A model generated the notes under the pieces. The model did no database searches. It saw nothing but the letters and a program-made list of their open reading frames with translations, and was not told the DNA's origin. A program made the position numbers and the translations under genes. Positions 13,749-51,603 of a DNA stretch of 54,818 nt are shown here, piece after piece. This DNA is from a virus. The DNA is taken from positions 1 to 54,818 of IMG/VR virus record IMGVR_UViG_3300037833_000027. One strand, 5' to 3'. Every line of letters starts with the position of its first letter. Within the stretch, counting starts at the first letter, position 1.

Positions 13749-15926
13749 CTACCCGGATGCTCCTCGGCCGCGCCGCGGGCTCCCGCATGCCCGTCCGTGC
13801 CGTCGGGGGCCCGTGGACCGGCCAGGCGGATCGGGCGGTGACGCCGCCCGCGCGGCCACGAGCGGGTCGATGGCCGCCGGGTCGAACAGCAGCATGCCGG
13901 AGATCGACCGCGTGGGCTGCGGCAGCTTGCCCGTCGTCAGCCACCGCCCGAGCGTCGTCCGCCCGATCCCGAGCAGCGTCGCGACCCGCTGGCCGGTGTA
14001 GAGATCCTTCGCCAGCTCCCAACGCTTCCGCGCCATCCCCTTGTGCCGACACTGGTCGTGGAACTGCGGGACGCCGGCCCAGTAGTGCTTGCGGCGGATC
14101 GGCAACGCCCGCCCGCACCCGCACGAGCAGACGTGCTTGCCCTCCTGCCCGCGCATCCACTCGGTGATCCGGTCGCCCGCCATCCGCGCGTCGCCGCGGA
14201 TCTCGACCGCGAACGCGGCGTCCGTCGCGTCGGCCGGGTCGGCGCCCGGCGGCGCGAGGCGGAGCCGGATCGACAGGTGCGACGCGTCCTGCGCGTCCAC
14301 AGTCAGCCCGTGGTGCTCGACCAGCGACCGCACGAACGCGCGGCCGGCGTCGGCCGTCTGGCCGACCAGGGCGTGCAGGCTCTTCAGGTACCGCGCGACC
14401 CGCTCGCGCGACATCGGCGGCCCGGCCGACTTGGCCGCCGCCGCGTCCGCCCGCTTGGTGTCGTCCCGCTCGCGCAGCTGCTTGGCCCGCTGGGTCAGCT
14501 CGACGATCCGCCGCCACGCCGCCTCCTGCTCGGCCTCCGCCCGCGCCCCGTCGTGCCGGCGGTACCACAGCTCGAGGTCCGCCTCGACCTTCCGCAGCGA
14601 GGCCACGGAATCCTCACCCCGCTCCTGCTCCCGCCGCCGGGCGTCGGCGAGCCGGCGGGCGGCCTCGTGGACGCGGTCGACCAGGTCGCCCGACGCGATC
14701 AGTTCGCCGACGCCGCCCCAGAACGCCTCGTGCACCTTGTCGGTGTTCAGCGGCGGGAACTCGCACCCGCCGACCGCGGCCGGGCCGCGGTACTTGCGCT
14801 TAGAGCAGACGTAGTACCCGTAGCTCCCGCCGGTGCGGCCGGGCCGGGCGGCCATCGCGGCCCCGCACGTGCAGCGGAGCACGCCGGTCAGCGGGTACCG
14901 GCGGCTCGCGTACGCCGCCGTCCCGCGGCCGAGGTGCTGGCACGTGTTCGCCGCCTTGATCGCTTGGGCGCGCCGCCACGTCTCCTGGTCGACGATCGGC
15001 TCGTGGCGGCCGCGGTGCAGCTCCTGGCGGCTCTTGGCCGCCCGCCGCCCGCGCTGGGTCTGGAACAGCTGCTCGTCGAAAGGGATCCACCCGGCGACCA
15101 CCGGGTCGTTGACGATCCGCCGGACCTTCTCCGGGCACCAGAGCAGGCCGGAGCGGCGGCGGTGGCCGAGTTGGTTCAGCTCGTTCGAGATCCGGCGGAC
15201 GCCCCAGCGGTCGTGCACGTACCGGTCGAAGACGAGCCGCACCACCTTGGCCTCGGCCTGGTCGACGTACAGGTGCCCCCGCTGGGGGTACTCGGTTTGC
15301 GCGGTGACGCTCGCCAAGTCGGTGTCGGTGCCGGCGGCGACCAGGTCGGCCCGCCGCCGCGCCTGGCTCGTGTAGCCGTACGACGGCGGGCCGCCGACGT
15401 GCCGACCGTCCTGGGCCATCGCCCGCTTGACCCGCCGGACGCGGTCGCCGACCTGATCCTTCTCCAGCTCGGCGGCCGCGGCCCGGACGCGGCCGGCGAA
15501 CTTGTCGGACGGGCTGCGGAGCGCGAGCGGGCCACTCAACGTGTGCAGCTCGACGCCGTGGTCGGTGCAGAGCTGGCGGAGCTGGTCCCACAGGGCGAGC
15601 TTCCGCGTTAGCCGGTCGACGTCGCGGACGACGATCGCACCGACCCGGCCGGCGACGACGTCGTCGATGAGCCGGCGCCCGGCCTCCCGGAGCTCGAACG
15701 GGACGTCGCCACCGACCGCCTTCAGCTCCTCGTACATCGTGACCGGGCCGAGGCCGGCGCGGAGGACGTAGGCGGTGATGTTCTCCCGCTGCGCCGACGC
15801 CGACAGGCCCTTCAGGCTCTCGTCTTTTGTCAATCGGATGTAGCCGGCGGTGACGCGCCGCTCACCGGCCGCCGCGGGCGGAGCCGGGGCTGGAACGCTT
15901 CGAACTTGTCCGACGGTCGCGTTCAT
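13749..15926 (-). CDS. Large serine recombinase family protein with Thr at the nucleophile position
   Basis: A 725-residue site-specific recombinase-like protein; the start at 15926 removes a non-homologous leader present in a longer frame to 16100. Domains: resolvase N-terminal (about 26-175; RDVDRLTRKLALWDQL fits the family), recombinase domain (about 215-330), a zinc ribbon (CTCGAAM then CSKRKY), a Glu/Arg-rich coiled coil, a second Cys-rich motif (CSCGCGRAL) and a C-terminal MerR/excisionase-type HTH (VATLLGIGRTTLGRWL). The Y-x-R-x-S motif reads YIRLTKDE, so the catalytic serine is replaced by Thr33. Either a nearby Ser acts or the protein is inactive or unusual. It lies upstream of the primase gene on the element. 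Confidence 0.88.
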   Translation of the reverse strand: MNATVGQVRSVPAPAPPAAAGERRVTAGYIRLTKDESLKGLSASAQRENITAYVLRAGLGPVTMYEELKAVGGDVPFELREAGRRLIDDVVAGRVGAIVVRDVDRLTRKLALWDQLRQLCTDHGVELHTLSGPLALRSPSDKFAGRVRAAAAELEKDQVGDRVRRVKRAMAQDGRHVGGPPSYGYTSQARRRADLVAAGTDTDLASVTAQTEYPQRGHLYVDQAEAKVVRLVFDRYVHDRWGVRRISNELNQLGHRRRSGLLWCPEKVRRIVNDPVVAGWIPFDEQLFQTQRGRRAAKSRQELHRGRHEPIVDQETWRRAQAIKAANTCQHLGRGTAAYASRRYPLTGVLRCTCGAAMAARPGRTGGSYGYYVCSKRKYRGPAAVGGCEFPPLNTDKVHEAFWGGVGELIASGDLVDRVHEAARRLADARRREQERGEDSVASLRKVEADLELWYRRHDGARAEAEQEAAWRRIVELTQRAKQLRERDDTKRADAAAAKSAGPPMSRERVARYLKSLHALVGQTADAGRAFVRSLVEHHGLTVDAQDASHLSIRLRLAPPGADPADATDAAFAVEIRGDARMAGDRITEWMRGQEGKHVCSCGCGRALPIRRKHYWAGVPQFHDQCRHKGMARKRWELAKDLYTGQRVATLLGIGRTTLGRWLTTGKLPQPTRSISGMLLFDPAAIDPLVAARAASPPDPPGRSTGPRRHGRACGSPRRGRGASG

Positions 15927-16075
15927 CCTGTTCAACCACGAGTCGTGCGAGCATCTCAACCAGCTCGTCCGCGACCGCCGCGGACGACGAGTTGAGTTTG
16001 TCGGGAGGGGAACACGCCGGTTGAGGTTCAGTAATGTTTTGCCTGCGAACATGGTCGGGCGGCGTGCCCGCGCGT

Positions 16076-16101
16076 CCGGAACGCTGGAACACTGGAACAC
16101 C
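16076..16101. repeat. 26-bp inverted repeat, left copy (partner 19795-19820)
   Basis: CCGGAACGCTGGAACACTGG plus AACACC at 16076-16101 is the inverted copy of 19795-19820 with one mismatch (position 16091). Each copy is itself built of iterated GTTCCAGC units. Together they bracket the primase and its partner. The left copy lies between the primase stop and the recombinase gene. Confidence 0.82.
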
Positions 16102-29113: not shown

Positions 29114-29374
29114 ATGACCCAACACGAACGAGACCTCACCTACTTGACCCGACACGGGGCCACCGTTCCCCCTCGCCCGCAGAAGCCCGCTAGTCGCTCA
29201 CAGTGGGCCGTCTGGCGCTCCGAGGTGTCCAGAGCCGCTGACGAGCTTTGCGAGGCTCTTATCGAACGGGAAGAGCGGGAAGAGGCCGCGTGGTTGGAAC
29301 TGCTGAAGAACTCGGAACCCGTCCACCGCAAGTGGGTTCGCAACCGACGCACAACGGTAGGAACCGGTCGATAG
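29114..29374 (+). CDS. Hypothetical phage protein
   Basis: An 86-residue charged helical protein (DELCEALIEREEREEAAWLE). A TTG start at 29051 would extend it by 21 residues, but neither start has a good ribosome site. It lies 8 bases before the HNH/AP2-like gene. The function is unknown. Confidence 0.55.
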   Translation: MTQHERDLTYLTRHGATVPPRPQKPASRSQWAVWRSEVSRAADELCEALIEREEREEAAWLELLKNSEPVHRKWVRNRRTTVGTGR

Positions 29375-29382
29375 GTGATAAC

Positions 29383-29928
29383 GTGAGCAGCGACTACATC
29401 AAGAAAGTTCCCGACCGCAACGTCTACCAGCCCGACGCCAACGACCCGAGCTTGACCCGCCTCGTCATCACCCGGAACGACGGCAGCCAGTACACGGTGA
29501 TGCTCGACACGGGCGACGTGGCGAAGGTCCGCCGCCACGTCTGGCGCGTGCAACCGTACTTCCACGGCCAGTACGTCTACCCTTGCACGGGCACGGCGGG
29601 GGCGATGTTTTCGGTGGGCCAGTACCTGCTAGGACTAGGACCGGCAGACCCCGACAACCGTTGCGCCGCGTACCGCGACCGCGACGGCATGAACTGCCGC
29701 CGGTCCAACCTGTTGATCGCTTCACGTAGCGAGATCAAGCGCAAGGCGAAGCTCCCCCCGAACACCAGCAGCGGCGAGCCGAACATCTTCCGGTTCCCGA
29801 ACGGCAAGCGGTTCAGGGTGAACATCCAGCACCGGGGGCACCTCTACGTGTCCACCCACACCAGCCTTGGCGAAGCCGTCGCAGCCCGTGACGCCATGAA
29901 GGCCAAGCTCTTCCCCGACGCCGCCTAG
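29383..29928 (+). CDS. HNH/AP2-like homing endonuclease-type protein with degenerate HNH
   Basis: A 181-residue protein starting at GTG 29383 with AGGTGA upstream. The middle has the phage HNH signature in weakened form: DPDNRCAAYRDRDGMNCRRSNLLIAS, where the Asn-rich end is present but the catalytic His normally in the H-x-x-G-x3-DNR pattern reads Tyr. The C-terminal part resembles an AP2-type DNA-binding domain (FRFPNGKRFRVNIQHRGHLY, then SLGEAVAARDAM). Such genes are mobile selfish endonucleases in phage genomes. The motif change suggests loss of cutting. Confidence 0.7.
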   Translation: MSSDYIKKVPDRNVYQPDANDPSLTRLVITRNDGSQYTVMLDTGDVAKVRRHVWRVQPYFHGQYVYPCTGTAGAMFSVGQYLLGLGPADPDNRCAAYRDRDGMNCRRSNLLIASRSEIKRKAKLPPNTSSGEPNIFRFPNGKRFRVNIQHRGHLYVSTHTSLGEAVAARDAMKAKLFPDAA

Positions 29929-30180: not shown

Positions 30181-30987
30181 ATGCGAGTCGCGGTTCAGAC
30201 CACCACGCTCCCGAGGGAGCAAATCTACTGGCTTGAAGAGTGGGTCAAGTACCACCTGTGGCTCGGGTTCGACCACGTGTTCATCTACGACAACACGGGC
30301 AGCGTGGCCTACGAGTACAGCGCGTTGTTCGGGCAGCCGACCGTCACCACGGACGGCCGCAACTACAAGGGCCACGAGATCAGGGCAATGACCGGCCACC
30401 TCACCGATGCCGACGTGGCCGACATCGTGAAGCAGATCGGGGAGAAGTACGCCGGGCGGGTGACCATCACGCCGTGGTTGCCGCTTAACGCGGAGGGGAA
30501 GCCCTTCTACGGCCAGACGGCCGCGATGGAACACTTCCTCGTGAACCACGGGCCGCACTACGACTGGGTGTTGTTCGTGGACCTCGACGAGTACCTCGTG
30601 AACCCGGACTGGCGGACGTGGTTGGAGCACTTCGAAGCCCACGGCCGCAACGAGGTTCTCGTCGGGGCGAAGTTGTTCCGGGAGCGCATCACCGGGGCGG
30701 TCCCCACGATCCCCACCCAGAGCATCACCCAGAGCTACCCCGACCACTGGGACCGGCAGCCCAAGCGGTTCGCGAAGTGCGCCGACGTGATCCAGCCGGG
30801 AGTTCACTACGGGGGCAAGTGGAGGCAGTACCACCCCGCCCACGACACGTGCCTTTACCTCCACCACTACCGAGTGGAGCGGCGGCAGGAAATCACCCGC
30901 ATGGAGCATGACGACACGCTCGCGAAGATCATCCCCGAACTGCGGCTTGACGGTTGCGTGCCGGTGCCGAGGAAGGCCACGGCGTGA
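30181..30987 (+). CDS. Glycosyltransferase family 2/92-like
   Basis: A 268-residue enzyme that should transfer a sugar from a nucleotide sugar. It has an N-terminal EQIYWLEEWVKYHLWLGFDH, then VFIYDNTG, and the metal-binding DLDEY (about residues 131-135) inside DWVLFVDLDEYLVNP. This is the pattern of DUF23/GT92-type transferases. There is no membrane helix, so it acts in the cytoplasm. Its stop overlaps the next gene's GTG by 3 bases. It lies upstream of the terminase genes in a phage module that has two more sugar-modifying enzymes at its far end. Confidence 0.85.
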   Translation: MRVAVQTTTLPREQIYWLEEWVKYHLWLGFDHVFIYDNTGSVAYEYSALFGQPTVTTDGRNYKGHEIRAMTGHLTDADVADIVKQIGEKYAGRVTITPWLPLNAEGKPFYGQTAAMEHFLVNHGPHYDWVLFVDLDEYLVNPDWRTWLEHFEAHGRNEVLVGAKLFRERITGAVPTIPTQSITQSYPDHWDRQPKRFAKCADVIQPGVHYGGKWRQYHPAHDTCLYLHHYRVERRQEITRMEHDDTLAKIIPELRLDGCVPVPRKATA

Positions 30988-31778
30988 GTGACCCGCTTGC
31001 GAACCTGAAGGCGTTCGACCCCGCCAGCTTGCCCGACGTGTCGCTCTACACCGCCGACATGCCCACCCACGACGAGTGGGCAGCGGAGGTGCCGCAGCCG
31101 TTCGACGACGTGCCCGACTTCGACCCCGAGGCCGACCCCGAGGTGAACGTCAACCGGCAGTTGTCGGGCGACAAGACCTACACCCGGTTGCCGGTGCGCC
31201 GCCTGTTCATCGACTACCGCGAGAACCCGGAAGCCTACAGGCACATCGCGCACCTGCCCGCCGAAGGGGAGGACGTGGAGATGCTCATCTCCGGCAGGTA
31301 CGCCATGTGGGAACTTGTGCCCTCGCTCATCGTGAAGACGGGCCAGAACATCGACACGTTGACCATCGCCACGTTGAGCTACAGCAAGCAGAACGCGGCC
31401 GAGCTTCTGGGGCTACTGGATGACGGGCGGATCGGGCGGTGTGGGTTGCTCGTGAGCTACTTTTTTAAGGCCCAGAACCGCCCGCTTTACGACAGCCTCG
31501 TGCCGGGGTTGCGGGAACGCGGGTGCAAGGTGTTGGCCATGCGGACGCACGCGAAGGTGTTCCTCGTGAAGATGGTTGACGGCACGTGCTACGTGATCCG
31601 GGGCAGCCCGAACATGCGCTCATCGAAGAACTTCGAGCAGTTGACCATGAGCCGTGACGCGGGGCTTTACGAGTTCTACGCCAAGTGGATCGAAGGAGAG
31701 CTACTGCACGGCGTGGAACTAGGTAAGGATGCCGACGAAGAAACAGACAGAGACAAAGCGACCGACACCGCCCCCTGA
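30984..31778 (+). CDS. Phospholipase-D-like phage protein
   Basis: A 264-residue protein; GTG 30984 overlaps the previous stop. The C-terminal part has a single HxK-type motif, THAKVFLVK, followed by RGSPNMRSSKNFEQ, as in PLD-superfamily nucleases and related phage proteins. The first 60 residues are acidic and probably disordered. A single HKD motif would need dimerisation. It overlaps the small terminase gene by 50 bases and sits where phages often put packaging accessories, so a DNA-processing role is plausible. Confidence 0.68.
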   Translation: MSDPLANLKAFDPASLPDVSLYTADMPTHDEWAAEVPQPFDDVPDFDPEADPEVNVNRQLSGDKTYTRLPVRRLFIDYRENPEAYRHIAHLPAEGEDVEMLISGRYAMWELVPSLIVKTGQNIDTLTIATLSYSKQNAAELLGLLDDGRIGRCGLLVSYFFKAQNRPLYDSLVPGLRERGCKVLAMRTHAKVFLVKMVDGTCYVIRGSPNMRSSKNFEQLTMSRDAGLYEFYAKWIEGELLHGVELGKDADEETDRDKATDTAP

Positions 31779-32103
31779 GATCGAGGGTGAGGCCCTACTC
31801 GAATGGGACCGGTGTTGCGAAGAGCTTGAACAACTGGGGCGACTGAACACGGTGGACCGGGGGATTCTCACGGTTCACTGTCAAATCTACGCAGCAAATC
31901 AGGCCGCATTTAAGCACGTGGCGCAGTGGGGGCCGGTGTTGAAGGCCGCGAACGGCGTGGTGGGACAGGGGCCGTTCTGGAAGACCATGAAGGACGCCAC
32001 CGCCCTGTTGCAGAAGAGCTACGCCGAACTCGGACTCACCCCGAAAGCTCGTGGGTTCGACGCCAACCAAAGGGATGACGAGGGCGACGACCTCGACTTT
32101 TAG
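31729..32103 (+). CDS. terS: P27-family terminase small subunit
   Basis: A 124-residue DNA-recognition subunit of the packaging motor. It fits the P27 family in length and pattern: acidic helical start (EALLEWDRCCEELEQLGRLN), TVDRGILTVHCQIYA, and a C-terminal LLQKSYAELGLTPKAR. It lies directly before the large subunit gene (2 bases between stop and GTG) and overlaps the PLD-like gene by 50 bases. Confidence 0.9.
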   Translation: MPTKKQTETKRPTPPPEIEGEALLEWDRCCEELEQLGRLNTVDRGILTVHCQIYAANQAAFKHVAQWGPVLKAANGVVGQGPFWKTMKDATALLQKSYAELGLTPKARGFDANQRDDEGDDLDF

Positions 32104-32105
32104 AA

Positions 32106-34004
32106 GTGGCAGAGACACCCGACGAGAAACACAAGGCCGCACGCAACGCCTACTACGACCAGCACGCCCGAGACCCGGACGCGAAGCGCTTCTACAACAG
32201 CGCGGCATGGAAGCGGGCACGGAAGGCGAAGCTCGCCCAGTACCCCGTGTGCCAGCGATGCGAGAAGGTGTTCGCCGAGCACGTTCACCACGTCATCCCC
32301 CTGAAGGATTGCACCGACGCCCAAAAGCTCGACCCCGGCAACCTGTTCAGCACGTGCGCCCCATGCCACAACATCATGGAGGCCCAGACGCAGAGCGCCG
32401 CCGCCCTCACGGTGTCGGGCACGCTCGTGGTGGCCGAGGACGAGAACTACTTCTACGACGCCGAGGCAGCCGAGAAGCCCGTCCGGTTCATCGAAACCTA
32501 CTGCCGCCACTACGAGGGCCTGTTCGCCGGGCAGCCGTTCACCCTGTTGGACTGGCAGAAGAGCATCATCCGCACCCTGTTCGGGTGGAAACACCGGGGG
32601 ACGGGACTACGCCGGTTCAGGGAGTTGTGGCTTTTGACGGCCAAGGGTGCGGGCAAGACGCCCATGCTCGCCGCCATCGCCCTCTTCATGCTGCTAGGAG
32701 ACGGGGAAGCGGGCGCTCACGTCGTCAGCATGGCCAGCAGCTTCGAGCAGGCCAATCTGACGTTCGACGCGGGCAAAAAGTACATCGCGCAGAACCCCAA
32801 GTTGTCCAAGGCCTGTGAGTCGCAGCAGTTCGTCATCAAGGGGCCGAAGTTCGGCAAGTGGACGACGATCTCCGGGAAACCGAACGGCAGATCGGGGCCG
32901 CGCCCCTCGTGCATCATCGCGGACGAGGTTCACGAGTGGCCCACGGGCACCGACAAGGCCTACGACCTGTTGACGGCCAACTTGTTCAAGCGGTCGCAGC
33001 CCCTGTTGCTCGTGGCCACGAACGCCGGGGCCGACCGCACCGGGTTCGCGTGGCAGTTGCACGAGCGGGCCATGAACGTGTTGTCCGGGAAGGTGACGGA
33101 CGACACGTTGTTGCCGGTCATCTACGAGGCCGACAAGTCGCTCGACTGGCGCAGCGAGGAAGCCGCCAAGGCCGCTAACCCGTCACTGGGCGGGTTCGTC
33201 AGGTTCGAGCAGTTGCAGCCGGAGCAGTTGAAGGGCGAGGCCCGCTACCGCCGCCTGTACCTGTCGCAGTGGGTGACGGGTTCCGACAAGGCGTTCGACA
33301 TGGAGTTGTGGGACTCGTGCGCCGCAGACCTCGACCACGGGAAGTTGAAGGCCCTCCCCCTCTACGTCGGCATCGACGCCAGCGCCGGTGACGACCTGTT
33401 CGCCGTCACCCACGTCTGGGTGACCCCGGAGCGTCACTACGTGGATGCCCACTTCTTTCTCCCCAAGGTGACGGCCCAAAAGTACGAGGACAGCCACCGC
33501 ATCCCGTTCACCCGGTGGGCGGAACAGGGGCACATCACCCTGTTGGACGAGCCGACCATCAACCACGCCGTTCGCCAGCGAATTGCGGCCGAGATCATCG
33601 CCACGAGCAAGGTGAACCCGGTTTTGAAGCTCGGCTATGACCGGGCATGGAAGGCCGACGAGGTGGTGGCCACGGTCGCGGCAGCGGGCATCGAGTGCGA
33701 ACCCATCGGGCAGGGCTGGGGCGTGTGGGAAGGCAGCCGCGAGCTAGACAACCGGTTGAAGGAGAAGGCCGTCACCGTGAGCCGGAACCCCGTGCTGCGC
33801 TGGTGCGCCGAGAACACGGAGTGGGAGCACGGTAAGCACGGGGGGTTCTGGCCGGTCAAGCCCAACGCAAAAGGCAGTTATGCGGGAAGGAGATCGGCCA
33901 AGATCGACGGAATTAGCGCACTGGTGACCTGTCTGACGGAAGCACGGAAGCACGCTTTCCCGAAGACCCAACAGCAATGGCGGGGGACGATCCATTTTGC
34001 ATAA
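32106..34004 (+). CDS. terL: Terminase large subunit with fused N-terminal HNH domain
   Basis: A 632-residue packaging ATPase/nuclease of the HK97 type. Residues about 28-92 are a complete HNH domain: Cys49-x-x-Cys52, His61-His62 (VHHVIPL), Asn79 and Cys84-x-x-Cys87-His88. After a short linker comes TerL: LDWQKSIIRTLFG, Walker A TAKGAGKTPM (about 178-187), Walker B CIIADEVHEW (Asp273, Glu274), and the RNase H-like nuclease with Asp424 (VGIDASAGDD) and a late Asp in AKIDGISAL. In most cos-type phages the HNH protein is a separate gene beside TerL; here both are one continuous frame with no internal start signal. The start is GTG. Confidence 0.93.
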   Translation: MAETPDEKHKAARNAYYDQHARDPDAKRFYNSAAWKRARKAKLAQYPVCQRCEKVFAEHVHHVIPLKDCTDAQKLDPGNLFSTCAPCHNIMEAQTQSAAALTVSGTLVVAEDENYFYDAEAAEKPVRFIETYCRHYEGLFAGQPFTLLDWQKSIIRTLFGWKHRGTGLRRFRELWLLTAKGAGKTPMLAAIALFMLLGDGEAGAHVVSMASSFEQANLTFDAGKKYIAQNPKLSKACESQQFVIKGPKFGKWTTISGKPNGRSGPRPSCIIADEVHEWPTGTDKAYDLLTANLFKRSQPLLLVATNAGADRTGFAWQLHERAMNVLSGKVTDDTLLPVIYEADKSLDWRSEEAAKAANPSLGGFVRFEQLQPEQLKGEARYRRLYLSQWVTGSDKAFDMELWDSCAADLDHGKLKALPLYVGIDASAGDDLFAVTHVWVTPERHYVDAHFFLPKVTAQKYEDSHRIPFTRWAEQGHITLLDEPTINHAVRQRIAAEIIATSKVNPVLKLGYDRAWKADEVVATVAAAGIECEPIGQGWGVWEGSRELDNRLKEKAVTVSRNPVLRWCAENTEWEHGKHGGFWPVKPNAKGSYAGRRSAKIDGISALVTCLTEARKHAFPKTQQQWRGTIHFA

Positions 34005-35538
34005 CCTAACGACCATCAACGGCATCCGGGTTTACGACGCGAAGCCCGGTGACGTGATCGGCACGAGCATCATCAACGGCTACAGTGCCCTCACCGTCCC
34101 CGCCTACTGGCGGGCCATCAACTTTTTGGCCACCAACTTGGCCAGCTTCCCCCGCTCGGTTCATCGGGACGGGGCGAAGGCCGACGAGCCGCACCCGCTC
34201 GACCGCATCCTGAAGCGACGGCCCAACGCCTACCAGAACGCCACCCAGTTCTGGCGCACCCTGTTCGCGCACGCCGGGCACTGCGGCAACGGGTTCGCGG
34301 AGATCAAGCGGACGGCCACGGGCCGGGTGGACGCCGTTCACAACCTGTTGCCCGAGGACGTGGCCCCGTTCCGCTACGCCCCGGACGACGGGAGCGGGCC
34401 GCAGCAGTTCTATTACCACGCGACCACGAAGCGGATTCTCCCCGCAGCCGACGTGGTTCATCTTGCCGCGCTCAGTTGGGACGGCATGAGCGGGTTCGAC
34501 CCCGTGGAACTGTTGGCCGACACGTTCCAACAGGCCAAGGCCCACCAGAAGTATTCCACCCGCTACATCCAGACGGGCACCGTCATCAAGGGCGCGGTAG
34601 AGGTGCCGGGCAGCATGACGCCGGAGCAGTTGGCCCAGTTCACGACCCTGTTGCGGACCCACTTCAGCGGCAGCACGGCCGACCGTGACGTGATGATCCT
34701 GACGGACGGGGCGAAGCTCAACAACTCAACTATCACGCCCGTGGAGAGCCAGTTGGTGGAACAGGGGGCGAGCATCACCAAGGCCATCGCCCAAGTCACC
34801 GGCGTGCCGCCCCAGTTCCTCTACGAGTTCTCCGAGTCGAAATACAACGACAGCATCGAGCAGATGGGCCAAGACGTGGTGCGCTACACGTTCCGCCCGT
34901 GGATCGAACAGACGGAAGACGAGTTGATGGTCAAGCTGTTGACGGAACAGGAGCAGGAGCAGGGGTTCACCATCCGGTTGAACCCGGACGCCCTGTTGCG
35001 GGGCGACACGGCAGCCCAGACCGCCGCCGTCATCAGCACCGTGAACGGCGGGTTGCGGTCCCGCAACGAGGGCCGGGCGCTGCTGGACTTGCCGCCCGAC
35101 TCGGACCCCGAGTCCGACAAGCTGAAGACGTTAGGCGACACCACGGTCAACCAACCGAAGGCCCTGCCGCCCAAGTCGTCGGCCACGAGCGAGGGCGACA
35201 CGTTCGCCGCCCTCATGCCGGTCATCACCGCCGCCGTGGAGCGTGTGGAGACGAAGACGGCCAACGCGTTCACCAGCACGGCCGCGAAGAAGCCCGAGGC
35301 CGAGCGCGTCATCTGGGCCAACGTGTTCGCGGAGCAGCAGGCCAAGTACGTGGCCGACGCGCTCGCGCCCGTGGCCGAGACGTTGACGGTACTCGGTGGG
35401 GCAGCGTTGCCGGTGCCCCAGATCGCGGAGCGGTACGGGGCACAAGTTCGACGCCGGGCAGCATCCGGGGAAGGCACCGACCTAAAGGGAATCATCGCCG
35501 ACTTGATCGGCCGGGGGGAACATGGACAAGCCGAGTAA
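33997..35538 (+). CDS. HK97-family portal protein
   Basis: A 513-residue portal subunit; twelve copies form the DNA channel at one capsid vertex. Typical segments are present: VPAYWRAINFLATNLASFP, FWRTLFAHAGHCGNGFAEIK, HLAALSWDGMSGFDPVEL and QVTGVPPQFLYEFSESKYND. The Ala/Glu-rich C-terminal 130 residues are an extension. The start is a TTG at 33997 overlapping the TerL stop by 8 bases, with GGGGGA upstream; another start is possible. It overlaps the protease gene by 17 bases. Confidence 0.92.
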   Translation: MHNLTTINGIRVYDAKPGDVIGTSIINGYSALTVPAYWRAINFLATNLASFPRSVHRDGAKADEPHPLDRILKRRPNAYQNATQFWRTLFAHAGHCGNGFAEIKRTATGRVDAVHNLLPEDVAPFRYAPDDGSGPQQFYYHATTKRILPAADVVHLAALSWDGMSGFDPVELLADTFQQAKAHQKYSTRYIQTGTVIKGAVEVPGSMTPEQLAQFTTLLRTHFSGSTADRDVMILTDGAKLNNSTITPVESQLVEQGASITKAIAQVTGVPPQFLYEFSESKYNDSIEQMGQDVVRYTFRPWIEQTEDELMVKLLTEQEQEQGFTIRLNPDALLRGDTAAQTAAVISTVNGGLRSRNEGRALLDLPPDSDPESDKLKTLGDTTVNQPKALPPKSSATSEGDTFAALMPVITAAVERVETKTANAFTSTAAKKPEAERVIWANVFAEQQAKYVADALAPVAETLTVLGGAALPVPQIAERYGAQVRRRAASGEGTDLKGIIADLIGRGEHGQAE

Positions 35539-36151
35539 GCGCATCATCTTCACGAAGGGCGACCACGCCAAGGTGGAGTTCGTCGCTGCGCCCGAGGGCA
35601 CGGCCGACAGCATCGGCACGATCAAGGGCTATGCCCTCGTGTGGAACGTGTTGAGCAGCGACCGAGGGGGCTACAAGGTCCGCCTGTTGCCGGGCAGCGC
35701 CAAGTTCACCAGCACGGTTCACGCCCTGTACCACCACGAGTGGACGGGCGGGCCGTTGGGCGACACCCAGACGAACACGCTCCGCATTCTCCCCGCCGAC
35801 GACTACGGCATCCCCGTAGAGATCGACTTGCCCGACACGACCAACGGCCGCGACACGTTGGAGCTTGTCCGCACGGGCCGGATGACCGGCATGAGCTTCG
35901 CCATGATCGGCAAGCCCACCAGTCACGAGACGGAAGAGGACGGAGAGACCGTGTTGAACGCGGAGGCCTACGAGGTGGACGAGGTGACCGTCACCGCGTT
36001 GCCCGCGTTCACTCAGACGGTTGTGGCCGTGAAGCCGGACCCCGAGCCGGAGCAGTTGTCGGCCGACAAGAAAAATCCCGAGTCGGGGAAGGAGTCGGCC
36101 CGGCAGAGTCGGAAACTAAGTGAGCTACGCCTATCCGTGCTGAAGCTGTAA
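35522..36151 (+). CDS. HK97-family prohead protease
   Basis: A 209-residue serine protease that matures the capsid by cleaving scaffold sequence and itself. It has the family pattern: an early strand, GYALVWNVLS, His71-His72 (YHHEW), and the Ser in RTGRMTGMSFAM (Ser125). The Lys/Glu/Ser-rich tail of about 50 residues is expected to be autocleaved. It is placed between portal and capsid, as in HK97. Confidence 0.92.
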   Translation: MDKPSKRIIFTKGDHAKVEFVAAPEGTADSIGTIKGYALVWNVLSSDRGGYKVRLLPGSAKFTSTVHALYHHEWTGGPLGDTQTNTLRILPADDYGIPVEIDLPDTTNGRDTLELVRTGRMTGMSFAMIGKPTSHETEEDGETVLNAEAYEVDEVTVTALPAFTQTVVAVKPDPEPEQLSADKKNPESGKESARQSRKLSELRLSVLKL

Positions 36152-36227: not shown

Positions 36228-37424
36228 ATGGATTTCATTTCAAAGCTACGTGAAGAGTTCGCAGCCACCCACGCCGAAGCCGCCACGGTCATCGAGACCG
36301 CAGGCACCGAAGGCCGCGACCTCACCGCCGACGAGAAGGCCGCGAACGAGAAGCGTTTCGCCCGCCTTGAGACCATCAAGAACGTCATCGACGACCAGAT
36401 GAAGTTCGCGAAGCTCGCGCTCGAAAAGGGCGAGGCCATCACGCCGAAGACCGCGCCGGGCAAGGCCGAGTACGAGGCCAACGAGGGCGAGCAGTTCGCC
36501 AAGGCCGACAAGATCGACAAGGCCGAGTTCAGCAAGGCCCTTTCCCAGTGGGCGCTGACGGGCCAGATGGCCCCGAAGTTCGCCACCATCACCACCGCCA
36601 CCTCGTCTGGCGCGTTGTTCCCGAAGCAGGTTGCCGCCCCCGTGGTCGCGACTCAGGGTTCGGCGCTCCGCGAGGCGATGGCAGCCGTTGGCGTGTCGCC
36701 CATCAAGACGGACGGCACCGCCGACCTCAACATCCCGGTCATCGCCGTTGCCGTTGGCAGCGACGTTTCCGAGACGGCATCGTCGGGCACGGACAACAGC
36801 CCGGTGCCGCCGGTCATCAACCTGAAGCCGGTCCCGATCCAGTCGGGTCAGGCGTGGGTGTCCAACTTGGAGTTGGGTTCGCTCGACTACGACCTGTTGG
36901 GCGAGATCGTCCCCGGTCTGGCCGACGCGAAGGAAATGCGTCTGGAACAGAAGGCGTTCGCGGCCATGATCGCCGACGCTGGCATCACCCAGACCGTGGC
37001 CACCGCCACCACGACCGGGTTCACGTTTGCGAACCTCGTGGACCTGAACCGCAAGTTCAACCGCCGCTATGACCGCCTGAAGGTCATCGTCCTGTCGGAC
37101 GCCGCCTACGCGGCAGCCGAGAAGCTGACGGGTTCGGACGGCCACCCCGTCCTGAACCGCGACCCCCAGAACCAGAGCCTGTTGCGCTTCAACGGCACGC
37201 CGGTAATTCGCAGCAGTTACCTTGAGGCGTTCGGCGCTTCCAAGGTGGTCGGCGTCATCCTGTCGTTCGTCGGCGTGAAGGTCCGCGACTGCGGCACGCA
37301 GCGGATCATCCGCCACGTGGACGACAAGGACAAGGTGGAGCAGACCGGGTTGAACCTCGTGGGCTACCACGCTGTGGGCTACACGCCCGAAGCCGTGGCC
37401 ACGCTGAAGACCCCGGTGAGCTAA
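36228..37424 (+). CDS. HK97-fold major capsid protein
   Basis: A 398-residue capsid subunit. The first 100 residues are a helical delta/scaffold domain (FISKLREEFAATHAEAATVI) that the protease would remove. Then comes TTATSSGALFPKQV at the start of the mature part, E-loop region GTADLNIPVIAV, and the C-terminal A-domain-like end FNGTPVIRSS, NLVGYHAVGY. A strong GGGGGAA ribosome site lies upstream. A terminator follows, as expected for a highly expressed gene. Confidence 0.93.
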   Translation: MDFISKLREEFAATHAEAATVIETAGTEGRDLTADEKAANEKRFARLETIKNVIDDQMKFAKLALEKGEAITPKTAPGKAEYEANEGEQFAKADKIDKAEFSKALSQWALTGQMAPKFATITTATSSGALFPKQVAAPVVATQGSALREAMAAVGVSPIKTDGTADLNIPVIAVAVGSDVSETASSGTDNSPVPPVINLKPVPIQSGQAWVSNLELGSLDYDLLGEIVPGLADAKEMRLEQKAFAAMIADAGITQTVATATTTGFTFANLVDLNRKFNRRYDRLKVIVLSDAAYAAAEKLTGSDGHPVLNRDPQNQSLLRFNGTPVIRSSYLEAFGASKVVGVILSFVGVKVRDCGTQRIIRHVDDKDKVEQTGLNLVGYHAVGYTPEAVATLKTPVS

Positions 37425-43847: not shown

Positions 43848-44834
43848 ATGCCGGAAAAGGTCTACGGGTTTGGTGCGGATGATGCGAAGCGCATCATCAA
43901 AGCCGCCAAGTTTATCGAGCAGCTTCCCACGAAGACGGGGGAGCGGGACAAGTTCCGCCTAGAGGAACCGCAGCGTGGGTTCTGGGCCATCATCGTTTGT
44001 TGTGGCCCCCGTGGCTGCCAGATCGACCCCGACTTCAAGGACAACCGCTACTGGTTCAAGCGGGCCTACGTCGCCAACAGCAACGGTTCCGACCCGGACG
44101 ACTTCAACGCGCAGGTGGACACCTCGAAAGAGAAGGTGTCCTACGTCATCGAACCCGCGACGTTGGACGGGAAGGCGAACCCCTACTACCTCCACCGGGC
44201 GGGCACGCACCACTTCGAGATGTGCAACTCGCACGAGTTGAAGCCCGGCGTCATCGTCTGGGTGAAGTGGGAGTACGACCGCAGCCCGAAAGCCAAGCCC
44301 CGCTACAGCATCTTTGCCGCCGACCGGTGGGCGGAATGTCTGGCCCCTTGTGACACGTCCAGTAGTTCCAGCGGATCGAGTTCCTCTAGCTCGTCGTCCT
44401 CGTCGAGCAGTTCGAGCAAGAGCCAGAGCGGAAGCTCTTCCAGTAGTTCGTCGGGCAGCGGTTCCAGCAGCAAGAGCAGCAAGAGCGGCAGCACCGTCAA
44501 CCCGAGTTCCAGCAGCAGCGGCAGCGGTTCGGGTAGCAGCAGCAAGAGCGGCAGCGGCAGCGGCAGCCAGCCGCCGCCTACGGGTTCATCGTCGGGCAGT
44601 GGGAGCGGAAGCCAGCCGAGTGGCGGCAGTGGCGGCAGTGGCGGCAGTGGCGGTTCCGGCGGAAGCGGTGGGAGTGGTGGTTCTGGCGGGAGCGGCGGCA
44701 GTGGCGGTTCCGGCGGCGGCAGTGGGTCCAGCGGGTGCAACTGCCCGTGGGAGTACAAGACCGTGGTGACCGGGGTGTCGTGCGTGAACGGCCAGATTCA
44801 GGTGACAACGGAAACGATCAAGGTTCTCACGTAA
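43848..44834 (+). CDS. Tail protein with long Ser/Gly-rich region
   Basis: A 328-residue protein. Residues 1-165 form a compact domain with Cys pairs (VCCGPRGCQ, then ECLAPC). Residues about 166-295 are almost only Ser and Gly, with serine runs grading into GSG repeats, then a short Cys-containing end (CNCPWEY). The repeat is a flexible stalk and a good O-glycosylation target. It overlaps the next similar gene by one base (TAATG). A glycosyltransferase follows two genes later. Confidence 0.8.
   Translation: MPEKVYGFGADDAKRIIKAAKFIEQLPTKTGERDKFRLEEPQRGFWAIIVCCGPRGCQIDPDFKDNRYWFKRAYVANSNGSDPDDFNAQVDTSKEKVSYVIEPATLDGKANPYYLHRAGTHHFEMCNSHELKPGVIVWVKWEYDRSPKAKPRYSIFAADRWAECLAPCDTSSSSSGSSSSSSSSSSSSSSKSQSGSSSSSSSGSGSSSKSSKSGSTVNPSSSSSGSGSGSSSKSGSGSGSQPPPTGSSSGSGSGSQPSGGSGGSGGSGGSGGSGGSGGSGGSGGSGGSGGGSGSSGCNCPWEYKTVVTGVSCVNGQIQVTTETIKVLT
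44621..44725 (+). repeat. GGCAGT-type microsatellite in the Ser/Gly stalk
   Basis: Tandem GGCGGCAGT and GGCGGTTCC-like units encode repeating Gly-Gly-Ser. Such repeats can change copy number by slippage, so stalk length may vary between isolates. They are coding repeats, not a CRISPR array. Confidence 0.8.
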
Positions 44835-46243
44835 TGCCCGATCCTGTCATCACCACCATCGGCCCATGCGGTTGCTGCGGTTCCAGCAGCAGCAGCAGCA
44901 GCAGCAGCAGTTCCCGCAGCACGTCGTCATCCAGCGGAAGCGGGATGCGTGAGGCGTGTTTCGCCAAGTTCACGTGTGACCACGTGTGTGCGAGCGGAGG
45001 CGGGACTTTCGGCCCCGTCACCCACGTCGTGACCCAGTGCGGCAACACGTTCGGCCTAGGTGAAGGCGTCTGGGTCTACACGGGGCAGACCGGCAGCACG
45101 TGCCACTACGCCTACGTGAAGCGGGGTGCGTTCTGCGATCAAGTCCCATCGTGCGGGGAGGACACGTTCTTTCAGCCCACCCCGCCCGCCCCGCCAGCGT
45201 CCGCGTTCTCGTGCCCGTGTGGCCCGAGTAGTAGCAGCAGCACGAGCAGGAGCGGCAGCGGTGGCAGCAGCGGGAGCGGCTCGGGCAGCGTGACTCAGCT
45301 TTACACGCTGACGCCGTGTGGTGGAGGAACGGTCGTCAAGACGACCGAAGACCTTGAGTCGGTCATCATCACGGGTTCCATCGTTCGCTGGCAGGGCAAG
45401 TGCTACACGGTGGGCGGGCCGGTGCCGAACGACGGTACGGGCATCGCGACCGCGACGGAATCCACCGTCTACTCGACTTGCACCGGTTGCCAATCCGTGG
45501 GCAGCGGCAGTGCGAGCACGAGCGTCAGCACGAGCGGTTCCAACGGATCATCCAACACGACGGGCAGTAGCGGCGGCAGCGGGTCGGGTGGATCGGCCAG
45601 CGGGTCGGGCGGCAGCAGCAGCGATGGCGAGCCGCAGCGCTCGTGCTGGACGAAGTGGTACTACTGGTGGAACTGCCGCACCCGCCAACTCAGCGGGCCG
45701 TTCGCCGACTTCACGGACTGCCGCAACGCGGACGGCAGCGACGTTTACACGGACTGGTTGAACGAGGGGGAGACCGTCTTCGGCAACGAGGTCACGTACA
45801 TCCAGTGCAAGTTCAGCAGGTTCGTGAGCCGTGACTACAACTGCGTCCCGGACCCGGACGGCGGCGGGCCGCAGCAGAGCAGTTGCAGCGGCATGGCAGC
45901 GGGCAGCCCCCCTACCGGCCAGCCCACGCAGGCACAACTAGACACGTGCGGTTGCCCGCCGCTCAGTTCTAGCAGCGTCAGCGTCAGCGTCAGCAGCAGC
46001 AAGACCGGCAGCGGCAGCACGACGGGTAGCGGCAGCGGCAGCCATAGCACCGGCGTGAGTAGCGGCAGTCGGGGGGAGGGTAGCACCAGCACCACCACAC
46101 CAAGTAACGGCAGTGGCAGCAGGCCCGGTAGTGGCAGCAGCAGTGGCAGCGGCAGCAGCAGTTCCGGGGCTGGCAGTGGCGGGCCACCGCTGCAAGCCGC
46201 CCGGCCGGGGAACGACTGCGGATGCAGCCGGGCCAAGAGATAA
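44834..46243 (+). CDS. Cys-rich tail protein with four Ser/Gly linkers
   Basis: A 469-residue protein that begins at the ATG overlapping the previous stop. Small Cys-rich domains (PCGCCG, CFAKFTCDHVCA, CSCWTKWYYWWNC-like text, CGCPPL) alternate with Ser/Gly-rich linkers, including a run of AGC serine codons near 44881. It ends CGCSRAKR. The modular beads-on-a-string layout suggests a fibre or tail tip exposed on the virion. No chaperone or known receptor-binding domain could be recognised. Confidence 0.78.
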   Translation: MPDPVITTIGPCGCCGSSSSSSSSSSSRSTSSSSGSGMREACFAKFTCDHVCASGGGTFGPVTHVVTQCGNTFGLGEGVWVYTGQTGSTCHYAYVKRGAFCDQVPSCGEDTFFQPTPPAPPASAFSCPCGPSSSSSTSRSGSGGSSGSGSGSVTQLYTLTPCGGGTVVKTTEDLESVIITGSIVRWQGKCYTVGGPVPNDGTGIATATESTVYSTCTGCQSVGSGSASTSVSTSGSNGSSNTTGSSGGSGSGGSASGSGGSSSDGEPQRSCWTKWYYWWNCRTRQLSGPFADFTDCRNADGSDVYTDWLNEGETVFGNEVTYIQCKFSRFVSRDYNCVPDPDGGGPQQSSCSGMAAGSPPTGQPTQAQLDTCGCPPLSSSSVSVSVSSSKTGSGSTTGSGSGSHSTGVSSGSRGEGSTSTTTPSNGSGSRPGSGSSSGSGSSSSGAGSGGPPLQAARPGNDCGCSRAKR

Positions 46244-46267: not shown

Positions 46268-47641
46268 ATGCGACCGGAAGACGTTTCAGAAGTCCACATC
46301 ATCAACTTGAAGACGAGGCCAGACCGTTGGGTCAACCTCACGTCCGCAATCGACAAGTGCGGGTGGCCCTTCCCCCAGCCGCAGCGGTTCAGCGCCGTCA
46401 GCGGCGACAAGGTGGGCGTCCCCGGTGACTACGCCTACCAGTACGGGGGCCGCGACATAGGCGCACGCGGGTTCTACGAGGGCGGCGGCGCGTTCGGGTG
46501 CAAGCAGTCTCACGTTGCTATCTTGCAGGACTGCTTGATGCGGGACGTGCCGTCCGTGTTGATCCTAGAAGATGACGCGCTCATCGCCCCGGACTTCGGA
46601 CAGCAGGTTCGGCAGTTCCTAGCAGAAGTCCCCGACGACTGGGAAGGCATCATGCTTGGAGGGCAGCACCACGCCGACCCCTCGACCATCGGGCCGAACG
46701 TGGTGAAGGTGAACTACGCCCAGCGCACCCACGCCTACATCGCCCGTGGCGAGTACATGCGGGAGTTGTACCGCCGGTGGGTTCACGCCGGTGCCCACGT
46801 TGACTGGTTGATGGAGAACTGGCAGCACACGCAGCGGGTCTACGCCCCGGTGAAATGGCTCGTGGCGCAGGCGGCGGGGAAGAGCGACATCAACGGCCGC
46901 ACGAACCCCGCCCAGAGTTGGAACGACCCCACGGGCGAGGAACCGGTCATCCACTTGCGAGCGCCCCGACACGTGGCGGAAGAGTTGCGGTTGTGGGGAC
47001 TCCACTACGGGTTCGACCGCGACCCGGAGACGGGAATCGACAAGGGGCTGACGCACGTGATGGCCAGCGGGAACGCGGAGAAGAGCGCCCCGCTTCGCAA
47101 CTGGGTGGCGACGATCCAGCGGGAGGCCATCAGCACGCCGGGCACCGTGGCCACGGTCTGGCACCCCGAGGTGACGACAGAACTCGCACGGCGGGCCGTG
47201 CCCGCCATCGCCAAGGTCTACAACATCGACGCGGACAACATCGCCGACGCCGTGGCCCAGTTGCCCCCCGAGTTGAACCTCGTGCGAACCACCACGTTCG
47301 CCCACCGGTTCACCGTGCTGTTGCGGTCATCTAGGGCCGTGATGGAGCAGTTGCGCGGCCACGGGTTCCACACGGGCTACTGGCGAGGCGGGGACGGCAT
47401 CGACAACGGCTTGAGGGACGTGATGGACTTGCAGGGGCCACCACGGGCCGACGCCCTACGCCAGTGGTGCGCATCGCTCGCCAGAGAGGCCGAGACGATC
47501 CACGAGGGCGTGGTCACTGTGTGGCATCCAGAGGCCACCAGAGAAGAACTAGAGGCCGCTACGGGCCACGCCGTGTTGGAGATCGCCGCCACGAGTGCCG
47601 ACGAGGTGTTGAACGCCTTCCAGCGACAGGTGGCCGCGTAA
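46268..47641 (+). CDS. Glycosyltransferase family 25-like with duplicated C-terminal module
   Basis: A 457-residue enzyme. Residues 1-220 fit GT25 (LPS-type galactosyl/glucosyltransferases): VHIINLKTRPDRW at the start, GAFGCKQSHVAILQDCL, and the metal-binding VLILEDDALIAPDF. After residue 240 a module of about 75 residues occurs twice (from about 240 and 360), sharing G-x-D-x-GL-x-x-VM, LR-W-A-x-x-RE and VATVWHPE / VVTVWHPE. The module is unknown. The gene directly follows the serine-rich tail genes. Confidence 0.86.
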   Translation: MRPEDVSEVHIINLKTRPDRWVNLTSAIDKCGWPFPQPQRFSAVSGDKVGVPGDYAYQYGGRDIGARGFYEGGGAFGCKQSHVAILQDCLMRDVPSVLILEDDALIAPDFGQQVRQFLAEVPDDWEGIMLGGQHHADPSTIGPNVVKVNYAQRTHAYIARGEYMRELYRRWVHAGAHVDWLMENWQHTQRVYAPVKWLVAQAAGKSDINGRTNPAQSWNDPTGEEPVIHLRAPRHVAEELRLWGLHYGFDRDPETGIDKGLTHVMASGNAEKSAPLRNWVATIQREAISTPGTVATVWHPEVTTELARRAVPAIAKVYNIDADNIADAVAQLPPELNLVRTTTFAHRFTVLLRSSRAVMEQLRGHGFHTGYWRGGDGIDNGLRDVMDLQGPPRADALRQWCASLAREAETIHEGVVTVWHPEATREELEAATGHAVLEIAATSADEVLNAFQRQVAA

Positions 47642-49032: not shown

Positions 49033-49142
49033 TGAAGTTACGCGAGTTGTGGACCGTCTGATCCCGTACGCCCGCTTTCTTGCGTACCCCATCGCCCCGG
49101 ATAGGATGGTCGGCTGTCATGCGGGGAGGCGTCGGAACAAAA

Positions 49143-51593
49143 ATGGCCAAGCTCAGCCGTCAGCAAATCGAGGAAATTAAAGCGCTTCTGGACGCCGGGC
49201 AGGAGCTTGGCGAAGAGCACCTAGACCTCCTGTTACCAGCCGAGCGACGGCGAGAATACGAGCTTGTATATGCGGGCAAGACCAGAGCCGAGGCCGTTCT
49301 CTCCGACACGTGGAGCGTCCCTCTTCAGCCCCTCAAGACGTTCGGCGTGCCCAAGGGGCAGGCCAGCCCCGAGTGGACAAACCGCCTGATCTTCGGGGAC
49401 AACCTTCAGGTTCTGAAGCGGCTGACGGACGACCCGGCCGTCGCTGGCCGGGTGAAGCTGGTCTACATCGACCCGCCCTTCGCGACCATGCAGGAGTTTC
49501 GGGGGAATGAGGAACAGAAGGCGTATCAAGACAAGATCGCCGGTTCGGCCTTTATCGAGTTCCTTCGGAAGCGGCTGATCCTGCTGCGTGAGCTTTTGCA
49601 CCCGAGCGGGGGCATTTACCTGCACTTGGACACCCGGAAGTCGCACTACCTAAAAGTCGTGATGGACGAGGTGTTCGGCGAGAACAACTTCCAGAACGAA
49701 ATCGTCTGGCGGAACACGAACACGCACAACAAGGCGCAGACCTTCGGTGAGATTCACCAGAACATCCTGTTCTACTCCAAATCTTCCGCCCTCGACTTCC
49801 ACAAGCTGAAAAGGCCACGGTTCAAGAAGTACGTCGAGCAACGGCACCGCTTTACCGATGACCGAGGGACTTACCGCTCATCCGACCTGACCGGCGAGGG
49901 CACCCGCACGGGCGACTCGGGCAGAAAGTGGCTCGGCTACGACCCCACGGCGGCGGGCAGACACTGGGCCATCCCTAGCTACGTGTATGACCTCATCGAC
50001 GAGGACATTTCTCATCTCCCTCTCTTGAAGAAGTTAGATTACCTGCTCGAACACGAACTCGTCATCCCGCCGTCGAAGCCCGGCGGTCAGCCGTCGATCA
50101 AGCGATACCGGAATGAAGATGATGGTTCCTTTGTGCAGGACATCTGGTCATATCAGCCGTACACGGAGGGCATCTACGCCAACAGTAAAGAGGCCATCGA
50201 CGAGGACGTGATTTACAGGGTGGGGCCGAAGGAGCATACCGGCTACCCCACCCAAAAGCCCGAGGGACTGTTGTCCCGGATCATCCGCTCTTGCACCACG
50301 GAGGGCGACCTCGTGCTCGACGCTTTTGGCGGATCGGGCACCACAGTGGCCGTGGCTGAAAAACTGGGCAGGCGGTGGATCGGGATCGACTGCGGCAAGC
50401 TCGCGATCTACAGCATCCAGAAGCGGCTGCTGAACCTGAGCACCGAGGTGGGCGGCAAGGGGAAGCCACTGCCGCCGCAGCCGTTCACGCTCTACAACGC
50501 CGGGCTGTACGACCTGCCGAGGATGCGGGATTTGCCTTGGGATGACTACCGCACCTTCGCCCTTCAACTCTTCCAAGTTCGTCACGAGCCGCACAAGCTA
50601 GGCGGCATCGCACTAGACGGGTTCAAAAGCACCGGGGACGTGCTCGTCTTCAACTTCCAGCAGAACGCCGGTGTTCAGCTTGACGAAGAGTACGTGCGGG
50701 AGTTGCACCGCCACCTAGGCGGACGCACGCGCGACGAGTTCTACATCATCGCCCCCGCCTCGCGCGTGACGTTCCTAGAGGACTACATCGACATCGACGA
50801 GACCCGGTACTACTTCCTGCGCATCCCGTACTCGATCATTGACGAACTACATGACCGCCCGTTCCGAGAGATTCGTCAGCCGATCAACGAAAAGGAAGTG
50901 AACGCCACCGTCGAGGCTGTCGGGTTCGACTTCATCCAGCCCCCGAGGCTGAAGGCCAGCTACGCCTACGAGAAGCCCGAACAGGAACTGTTCGGGGCTG
51001 CGACCATCCTCATCGAAGAGTTCCACAGCGAGGCGATGCTAAAGCGAGACCGGGAGTACGAAAACCGGGAGACGCTTTCGATGGTGATGGTGGACTACGA
51101 CTACAAGGGGAACGGCGAGGGCACGTTCGAATTGGACCTCGTGCTGTACCGGCACGAGATCGAAGAGGCGGGGTGGAAGGTGCGGTTGAACCCGAACAGC
51201 ATCGCCTCTCGGGTTATGATTATTTACATCGACATCTTCGGTAACGAACTCAGAGAGGTGAAGACACCGAACGACTTCGGCATCACGGAGTTGCCGAACG
51301 CGAAGGACGTAGACGCTGAGGGCACCGGGGACGTGGGCGAGCCTGTTGACGACGAGGACGATGACGACCGGGCAGGCGCGGGCGAGCCGGAGGCCTCAGG
51401 TCAGATGCGCCAGCGGAAGCCGAAGTCGAAGCCCACCAAAGCCGCAGCCAAGTCCGGCAACAACGGGAACGGATTGCACCGCAAGAAGCCAATCCGGCGA
51501 GCCAAGGTCAAACGGTCGCCGTTGCCGAAGCCGTCCAAGCAGAAGAAGGCGTTGACGAAGAGCGTATCGAGGAAGGCCACATCTCGAAGGTAG
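49143..51593 (+). CDS. mod: Type III restriction-modification methyltransferase (Mod)
   Basis: An 816-residue N6-adenine methylase that recognises the site for the complex. Catalytic motif IV is DPPF at 110-113 (YIDPPF) and the SAM motif DAFGGSGTTV is at about 394-403, the beta-class order of Mod proteins. Between them is the target-recognition region. The last 110 residues are unusual: an acidic run (DDEDDDD) then a Lys/Arg-rich tail. The ATG at 49143 follows GGGGAGG by 13 bases; an ATG at 49119 would add eight residues. The res gene follows after 10 bases. Confidence 0.92.
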   Translation: MAKLSRQQIEEIKALLDAGQELGEEHLDLLLPAERRREYELVYAGKTRAEAVLSDTWSVPLQPLKTFGVPKGQASPEWTNRLIFGDNLQVLKRLTDDPAVAGRVKLVYIDPPFATMQEFRGNEEQKAYQDKIAGSAFIEFLRKRLILLRELLHPSGGIYLHLDTRKSHYLKVVMDEVFGENNFQNEIVWRNTNTHNKAQTFGEIHQNILFYSKSSALDFHKLKRPRFKKYVEQRHRFTDDRGTYRSSDLTGEGTRTGDSGRKWLGYDPTAAGRHWAIPSYVYDLIDEDISHLPLLKKLDYLLEHELVIPPSKPGGQPSIKRYRNEDDGSFVQDIWSYQPYTEGIYANSKEAIDEDVIYRVGPKEHTGYPTQKPEGLLSRIIRSCTTEGDLVLDAFGGSGTTVAVAEKLGRRWIGIDCGKLAIYSIQKRLLNLSTEVGGKGKPLPPQPFTLYNAGLYDLPRMRDLPWDDYRTFALQLFQVRHEPHKLGGIALDGFKSTGDVLVFNFQQNAGVQLDEEYVRELHRHLGGRTRDEFYIIAPASRVTFLEDYIDIDETRYYFLRIPYSIIDELHDRPFREIRQPINEKEVNATVEAVGFDFIQPPRLKASYAYEKPEQELFGAATILIEEFHSEAMLKRDREYENRETLSMVMVDYDYKGNGEGTFELDLVLYRHEIEEAGWKVRLNPNSIASRVMIIYIDIFGNELREVKTPNDFGITELPNAKDVDAEGTGDVGEPVDDEDDDDRAGAGEPEASGQMRQRKPKSKPTKAAAKSGNNGNGLHRKKPIRRAKVKRSPLPKPSKQKKALTKSVSRKATSRR

Positions 51594-51603
51594 GGAGGGG
51601 ACC

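Follow-up and report, generated by a model that had tools for sequence, protein, structure and literature searches.

The HNH endonuclease of phage HK97 is said to have been found essential by Kala et al. in 2014, acting jointly with the terminase at cos. In that phage the HNH (gp74) and the large terminase subunit (TerL, structure 6z6d, family PF03354/PF20441) are separate proteins. According to passages of one HK97 report (PMC9410871), added GP74 promotes cos cleavage, at most five TerL are present per assembly, and the fusion of GFP to the TerL N terminus leaves packaging unimpaired. The closest solved HNH to the one considered here is that of Geobacillus virus E2 (GVE2; 5h0m/5h0o), a standalone 130-residue chain for which part of the published account (PMC5304195) gives a loss of about 60% of nicking in N109A and of 94% in H93A. 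In the current study, we analyzed a 54,818-nucleotide viral stretch (IMG/VR record IMGVR_UViG_3300037833_000027; here, the window) in which the same two domains as in gp74 and HK97 TerL form one polypeptide, coded between TerS and the portal; the HNH is thus a domain of TerL, unlike its free GVE2 counterpart.

The hnh-terL fusion gene (32106..34004, plus strand) opens with a GTG two bases past the TerS stop and codes for 632 amino acids plus a stop; its frame stays open for 9 further codons upstream of the GTG. Residues 7-98 (32124..32399) make up the HNH domain, as delimited by phrog_144 (an HNH family; residues 7-98, 8.6e-24), Pfam PF01844 (residues 49-90, 28.3 bits against a cut-off of 21.4), a sequence match to GVE2 5h0m (residues 7-94, 1.2e-9) and a structure model. 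After a linker at about residues 97-110 (32394..32435), which is the least conserved interdomain stretch, come the TerL ATPase domain (residues 149-320, 32550..33065; PF03354 profile positions 1-174 of 178, 66.3 bits, cut-off 23.7) and the RNase H-like nuclease domain (residues 330-616, 33093..33953; PF20441 profile positions 2-285 of 286, 50.2 bits, cut-off 24), both of them complete. The TerL family phrog_9 spans residues 95-621 (2e-109), and HK97 TerL 6z6d matches residues 117-572 (2.9e-24); 6z6d and 5h0m were the only solved structures matched by the protein sequence at E<0.001. The original prediction, that a complete HNH precedes a complete TerL in one frame, was therefore borne out by Pfam, PHROG and structure-sequence matches.

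As to the TerL half, the Walker A lysine (K184), the Walker B pair (D273/E274) and the nuclease acids (D424, D512 and D601) are invariant in all seven fusions described below. The roles of these residues were taken from parts of PMC9410871 and from alignment with 6z6d, although that of D601 follows from the Pfam match, since the 6z6d alignment stops at residue 572. Foldseek on the model returned HK97 TerL 6z6d as the best fold match (5.9e-36), and by domains, residues and predicted fold we class the protein as an HK97-type (Terminase_1) large terminase. AlphaFold2 (32 rows) gave a mean pLDDT of 89.3, with HNH and TerL both confident and linker residues 97-103 below 50; the relative placement of the domains in the model is unreliable, given a pTM of 0.68. 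Both halves are under purifying selection: pN/pS was 0.38-0.60 for the HNH part (five pairs) and 0.38-0.43 for TerL, and ranged from 0.36 to 1.05 for the 17-codon linker, all of these being rough ratios, since in most pairs the synonymous sites are almost saturated.

The HNH half has the beta-beta-alpha HNH motif with a CxxC...CxxC zinc site, as seen in the sequence, in the model (strands 59-62 and 80-83 and helix 85-96, pLDDT mostly >90) and in the match to GVE2. In the alignment with 5h0m, GVE2 H93, N109 and H118 correspond to H62, N79 and H88 of the window, and the GVE2 zinc cysteines to C49, C52, C84 and C87, so that all seven residues are kept. Packaging HNHs are coded beside terminase genes, and here the domain is fused to TerL; among the 80 best viral-contig relatives of the window HNH, 64 are followed by TerL on the same strand, starting at most 2.5 kb downstream, and 7 of the 16 others have fewer than 700 bases of sequence downstream. 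On these sequence features we assign the window HNH to the packaging kind, of the gp74 and GVE2 type. A tree of the HNHs themselves was weakly resolved (14 of 20 inner branches open), the sequence being too short.

A packaging-HNH sequence search that yielded 80 loci contained one other fusion with TerL (L044), which is a single 641-amino-acid frame, 48% identical to window residues 15-631. Five more, L149, L150, L151, L152 and L153, came from searches with the TerL clade. The search for this domain order that the original prediction had proposed has thus turned up the same one-frame fusion in six more contigs, with whole-protein identities to the window of 48% (L044), 58% (L149), 53% (L150), 52% (L151), 47% (L152) and 51% (L153). 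In each of the six, Pfam detects both the ATPase and the nuclease of TerL; its HNH model reaches the cut-off in L044, L150 and L152, falls below it in L151 and L153, and finds nothing in L149. A packaging-HNH profile detects the domain in all seven fusions and was built partly from those sequences, but an earlier profile, built without the six other fusions, recovered them as well. We surveyed 163 distinct TerLs that have an upstream stop; seven (window counted) are fused, which is not a rate, as the set was retrieved through its similarity to the window or to the window HNH. In a further 42 of the 163 the N-terminal frame is long but gives no HNH match, and none of the 42 shows CxxC...CxxC. 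As a separate observation, the L044 fusion frame holds no ATG, GTG or TTG before base 4008; it opens with ATC right after the TerS TAA and in the same frame (L044:3483-3489), with GGAG 6 nt upstream, which may point to an unusual start codon, to read-through of the stop or to an erroneous base.

The window TerL falls in a clade of 16 rows (support 100/100). The HNH-TerL junction is in view for 13 of these, L003, L038 and L154 being cut off on the 5' side and left out of the count. Seven are fused; in two the HNH and TerL genes overlap by 4 nt (L155, ATGA; L196, GTGA); and in four (L126, L156, L157 and L198) the HNH is a separate, nonoverlapping gene. Read by eye, L126 appears to have a glycosyltransferase-like gene between HNH and TerL, and L156 a further, endonuclease VII-like gene together with the separate HNH and TerL. 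HNH-TerL fusion is therefore common in this clade, to judge from the assembled contigs, and yet it does not define it, since 6 of the 13 assessable members are split; the suggestion that the fusion might mark out a phage group has to be given up. The best TerL tree calls for three changes between the fused and split states, and an earlier tree without L196 and L198 for two; because part of the fused subclade is poorly resolved, the safe claim is at least two switches. L152, although fused, groups with two split members (support 100/99), and it has the N-terminal Cys/His cluster that is found in the split HNHs and is missing from the other six fusions. This grouping and the retained cluster suggest that L152 represents a second, independent fusion event; a single fusion followed by fission is a possible alternative. 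Of the 14 clade loci tested, nine have a recognizable TerS, in each case upstream of the HNH. The window likewise has the order TerS-HNH-TerL, whereas five named phages with an annotated TerS (Enterococcus KEN22, Campylobacter PC10, Stenotrophomonas TS-12, Paracoccus Shpa and Serratia OS31) have HNH-TerS-TerL. The step that enabled fusion may have been a shift of the HNH into the position between TerS and TerL.

We propose that the fusion is probably a single-polypeptide, cos-cutting packaging nuclease in which the HNH is tethered to each motor subunit. Read directly from the sequences are the fused frame, the complete domains, the catalytic residues of the window, the seven contigs and the purifying selection; nuclease activity, cos cleavage and a fusion that is left unprocessed are what we infer. 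No cos site was located. In this scheme, the HNH nickase that HK97-type terminases use at cos, normally a free neighbor, would have become joined to the TerL N terminus, and the short flexible linker would tether it so that each motor subunit has an HNH of its own. TerS would position the fusion complex. The staggered cut at the ends of the genome would be made jointly by the HNH domain and the RNase H-like nuclease of TerL (the two nucleases belonging perhaps to one chain, perhaps to neighboring chains), and the TerL ATPase would pump the DNA. The window HNH occupies the N-terminal position that GFP holds in the HK97 construct; that construct shows tolerance of an N-terminal domain rather than HNH function there. 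More tentatively, each TerL subunit of the motor may carry two different nucleases in one chain, with the HNH traveling along with the motor and acting at the terminating as well as the first cut.

Other explanations of the joined frame turn largely on the junction. An assembly or sequencing frame error could have joined two genes, and in the two relatives with a 4-nt HNH/TerL overlap one indel would join the frames. Nevertheless, six other contigs are joined in frame in the same manner, the seven are different contigs that cluster on the TerL tree, and the linker can be aligned across all of them, which leaves the chance of such an error negligible. The original prediction had named as grounds for abandoning it a frame error or separate homologues with a conserved start at the junction; the error has thus fallen away and separate homologues do exist (L126, L155, L156, L157, L196 and L198), while the conserved start holds for some of the fusions and fails for the others. 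The TerL start codons of split L126 (ATG) and L156 (GTG) lie at alignment column 145, where the window, L150 and L152 have GTG and L044, L149, L151 and L153 have no start codon. In the window this is the GTG of residue 103 (32412..32414), possibly a relic or an internal start, and from its alignment with the two split TerL starts an internal start is possible there. One gene might accordingly give two products, the full fusion and a free TerL, so that some subunits would go without an HNH. We regard this as unlikely. Besides the four of seven fusions in which that column holds no start codon, the first canonical in-frame start of L044 is at residue 175, just ahead of Walker A, and L149 has no ATG, GTG or TTG in frame across residues 75-142; a separate TerL start by a canonical codon is therefore impossible at those two junctions. 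Moreover, no Shine-Dalgarno-like run was seen by eye upstream of the GTG at the window junction. The earlier statement that there is no internal ribosome site holds to that extent, with the reservation that the residue-103 GTG could start TerL.

Two further alternatives concern the HNH itself. It may no longer be a nuclease and may serve instead as a DNA-binding or docking domain, the TerL nuclease making both cuts. The middle Asn is indeed present in only three of the seven fusions (the window, L044 and L152); L150, L151 and L153 have Gly instead, and L149 has Phe and is also missing a zinc Cys. Of the 6 split relatives, 5 keep that Asn, as read from alignments. An HNH without the Asn may still be functional, however, since N109A in GVE2 leaves part of the nicking; H62 (the general base), H88 and the zinc cysteines C49, C52 and C87 are invariant in all seven fusions, with C84 in six, HNH pN/pS is below 1 in five of five pairs, and the window retains every HNH and zinc residue. 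We consider an inactive HNH quite unlikely. Alternatively, the HNH could have been a selfish homing endonuclease that arrived beside the terminase genes and was then joined to terL; PMC10448857 describes the stretch ahead of terminases as a hot spot of HEG-like nucleases. Homing endonucleases interrupt a gene or lie in an intron or intein, and the window HNH does neither; TerL is uninterrupted, the HNH is N-terminal in seven of seven fusions, and Pfam finds no intein or homing DNA-binding domain in the window protein. The HNH also accompanies the TerL clade in fused and split forms, weakly resolved as the HNH tree is, and a homing origin is to our minds very improbable.

A comparable arrangement may exist in phrog_4581 (annotated terminase small subunit, 395 positions), of which positions 25-113 match the window HNH (6.7e-12). 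From this PHROG match, an HNH may be attached there to a terminase protein that carries a TerS annotation, whereas the partner in the window is TerL. Among cultured phages searched with the HNH and TerL start as the query, one match covered at least 80% of it (best 60 of 1,599 records). This was Halomonas phage YPHTV-1, whose match is in two pieces and corresponds to separate genes. Stenotrophomonas TS-12, SpSL1 and Serratia OS31 were likewise suspected of fusions and proved to be annotated with separate genes. Plasmid matches began at residue 107 or later (best 20 of 496), the portal as a query against viral contigs found no relative, and both scans of genome contigs returned none, yielding neither a host genome nor a prophage copy. 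No paper on an HNH-TerL fusion was evident in the literature searched (titles and abstract openings, a scope outside which Kala et al. 2014 falls). The HNH, TerL and their partnership are already known, and we do not claim priority for the fusion; our contribution is the single-chain form, the fact that it recurs, and the series from fused through overlapping to split.

When two proteins are found fused, there is good reason to think that they act together. The present one ties the HNH to the terminase motor, at the TerL N terminus, and in a ratio of 1:1 unless free TerL is also made; neither tethering nor the fixed ratio nor the N-terminal placement could be deduced from phages with a free HNH. 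The original prediction saw in the fusion a natural test of how HNH and TerL cooperate, and this view gains support from the occurrence of fused and split forms in one clade, which offers a natural series for the gain or loss of HNH tethering. Its premise that the two proteins must act together at cos is known in part for HK97, where GP74 promotes the cleavage. Because close relatives keep the proteins apart, the effects of tethering can be asked about directly (cut position, timing and independence from HNH supply). If soluble, the fused protein could also ease structural capture of the nuclease-motor complex.

The fusion sits in a block of packaging and head genes on the plus strand. Upstream is the small terminase subunit of the P27/Terminase_4 family (31729..32103; PF05119 1.4e-17, TIGR01558 above cut-off), and directly downstream is the portal protein (33997..35538; PF04860 2.5e-72), followed by a prohead protease (35522..36151; PF04586 4.8e-24) and a major capsid protein of the phage capsid family (36228..37424; PF05065 1.3e-6). 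Just upstream of TerS, a gene at 30954-31778 has weak endonuclease PHROG matches and, by eye, an HKD-like (phospholipase D type) motif, and relatives of it occupy the same place in L152, L153 and L157. A second HNH-type gene near the terminase (29248-29928) matches phrog_99 in its C-terminal part. Glycosyltransferase genes lie within the phage gene block at 30181-30987 and 46268-47641 (GT92-like and GT25-like). Elsewhere in the window, a 162-nt direct repeat, 90% identical, flanks a minus-strand gene (324-485 and 1897-2058), and a perfect 20-nt hairpin is found at 490-534. A large serine recombinase with resolvase, recombinase and zinc-ribbon domains (13749-16100) is a likely integrase. Beyond the tape-measure gene, a long run of short GGCAGC/AGCAGC-type repeats with Ser/Gly-rich coding extends over 44440-46190, and a DNA methylase followed by a ResIII-type helicase (49080-54138) may form a restriction-modification pair.
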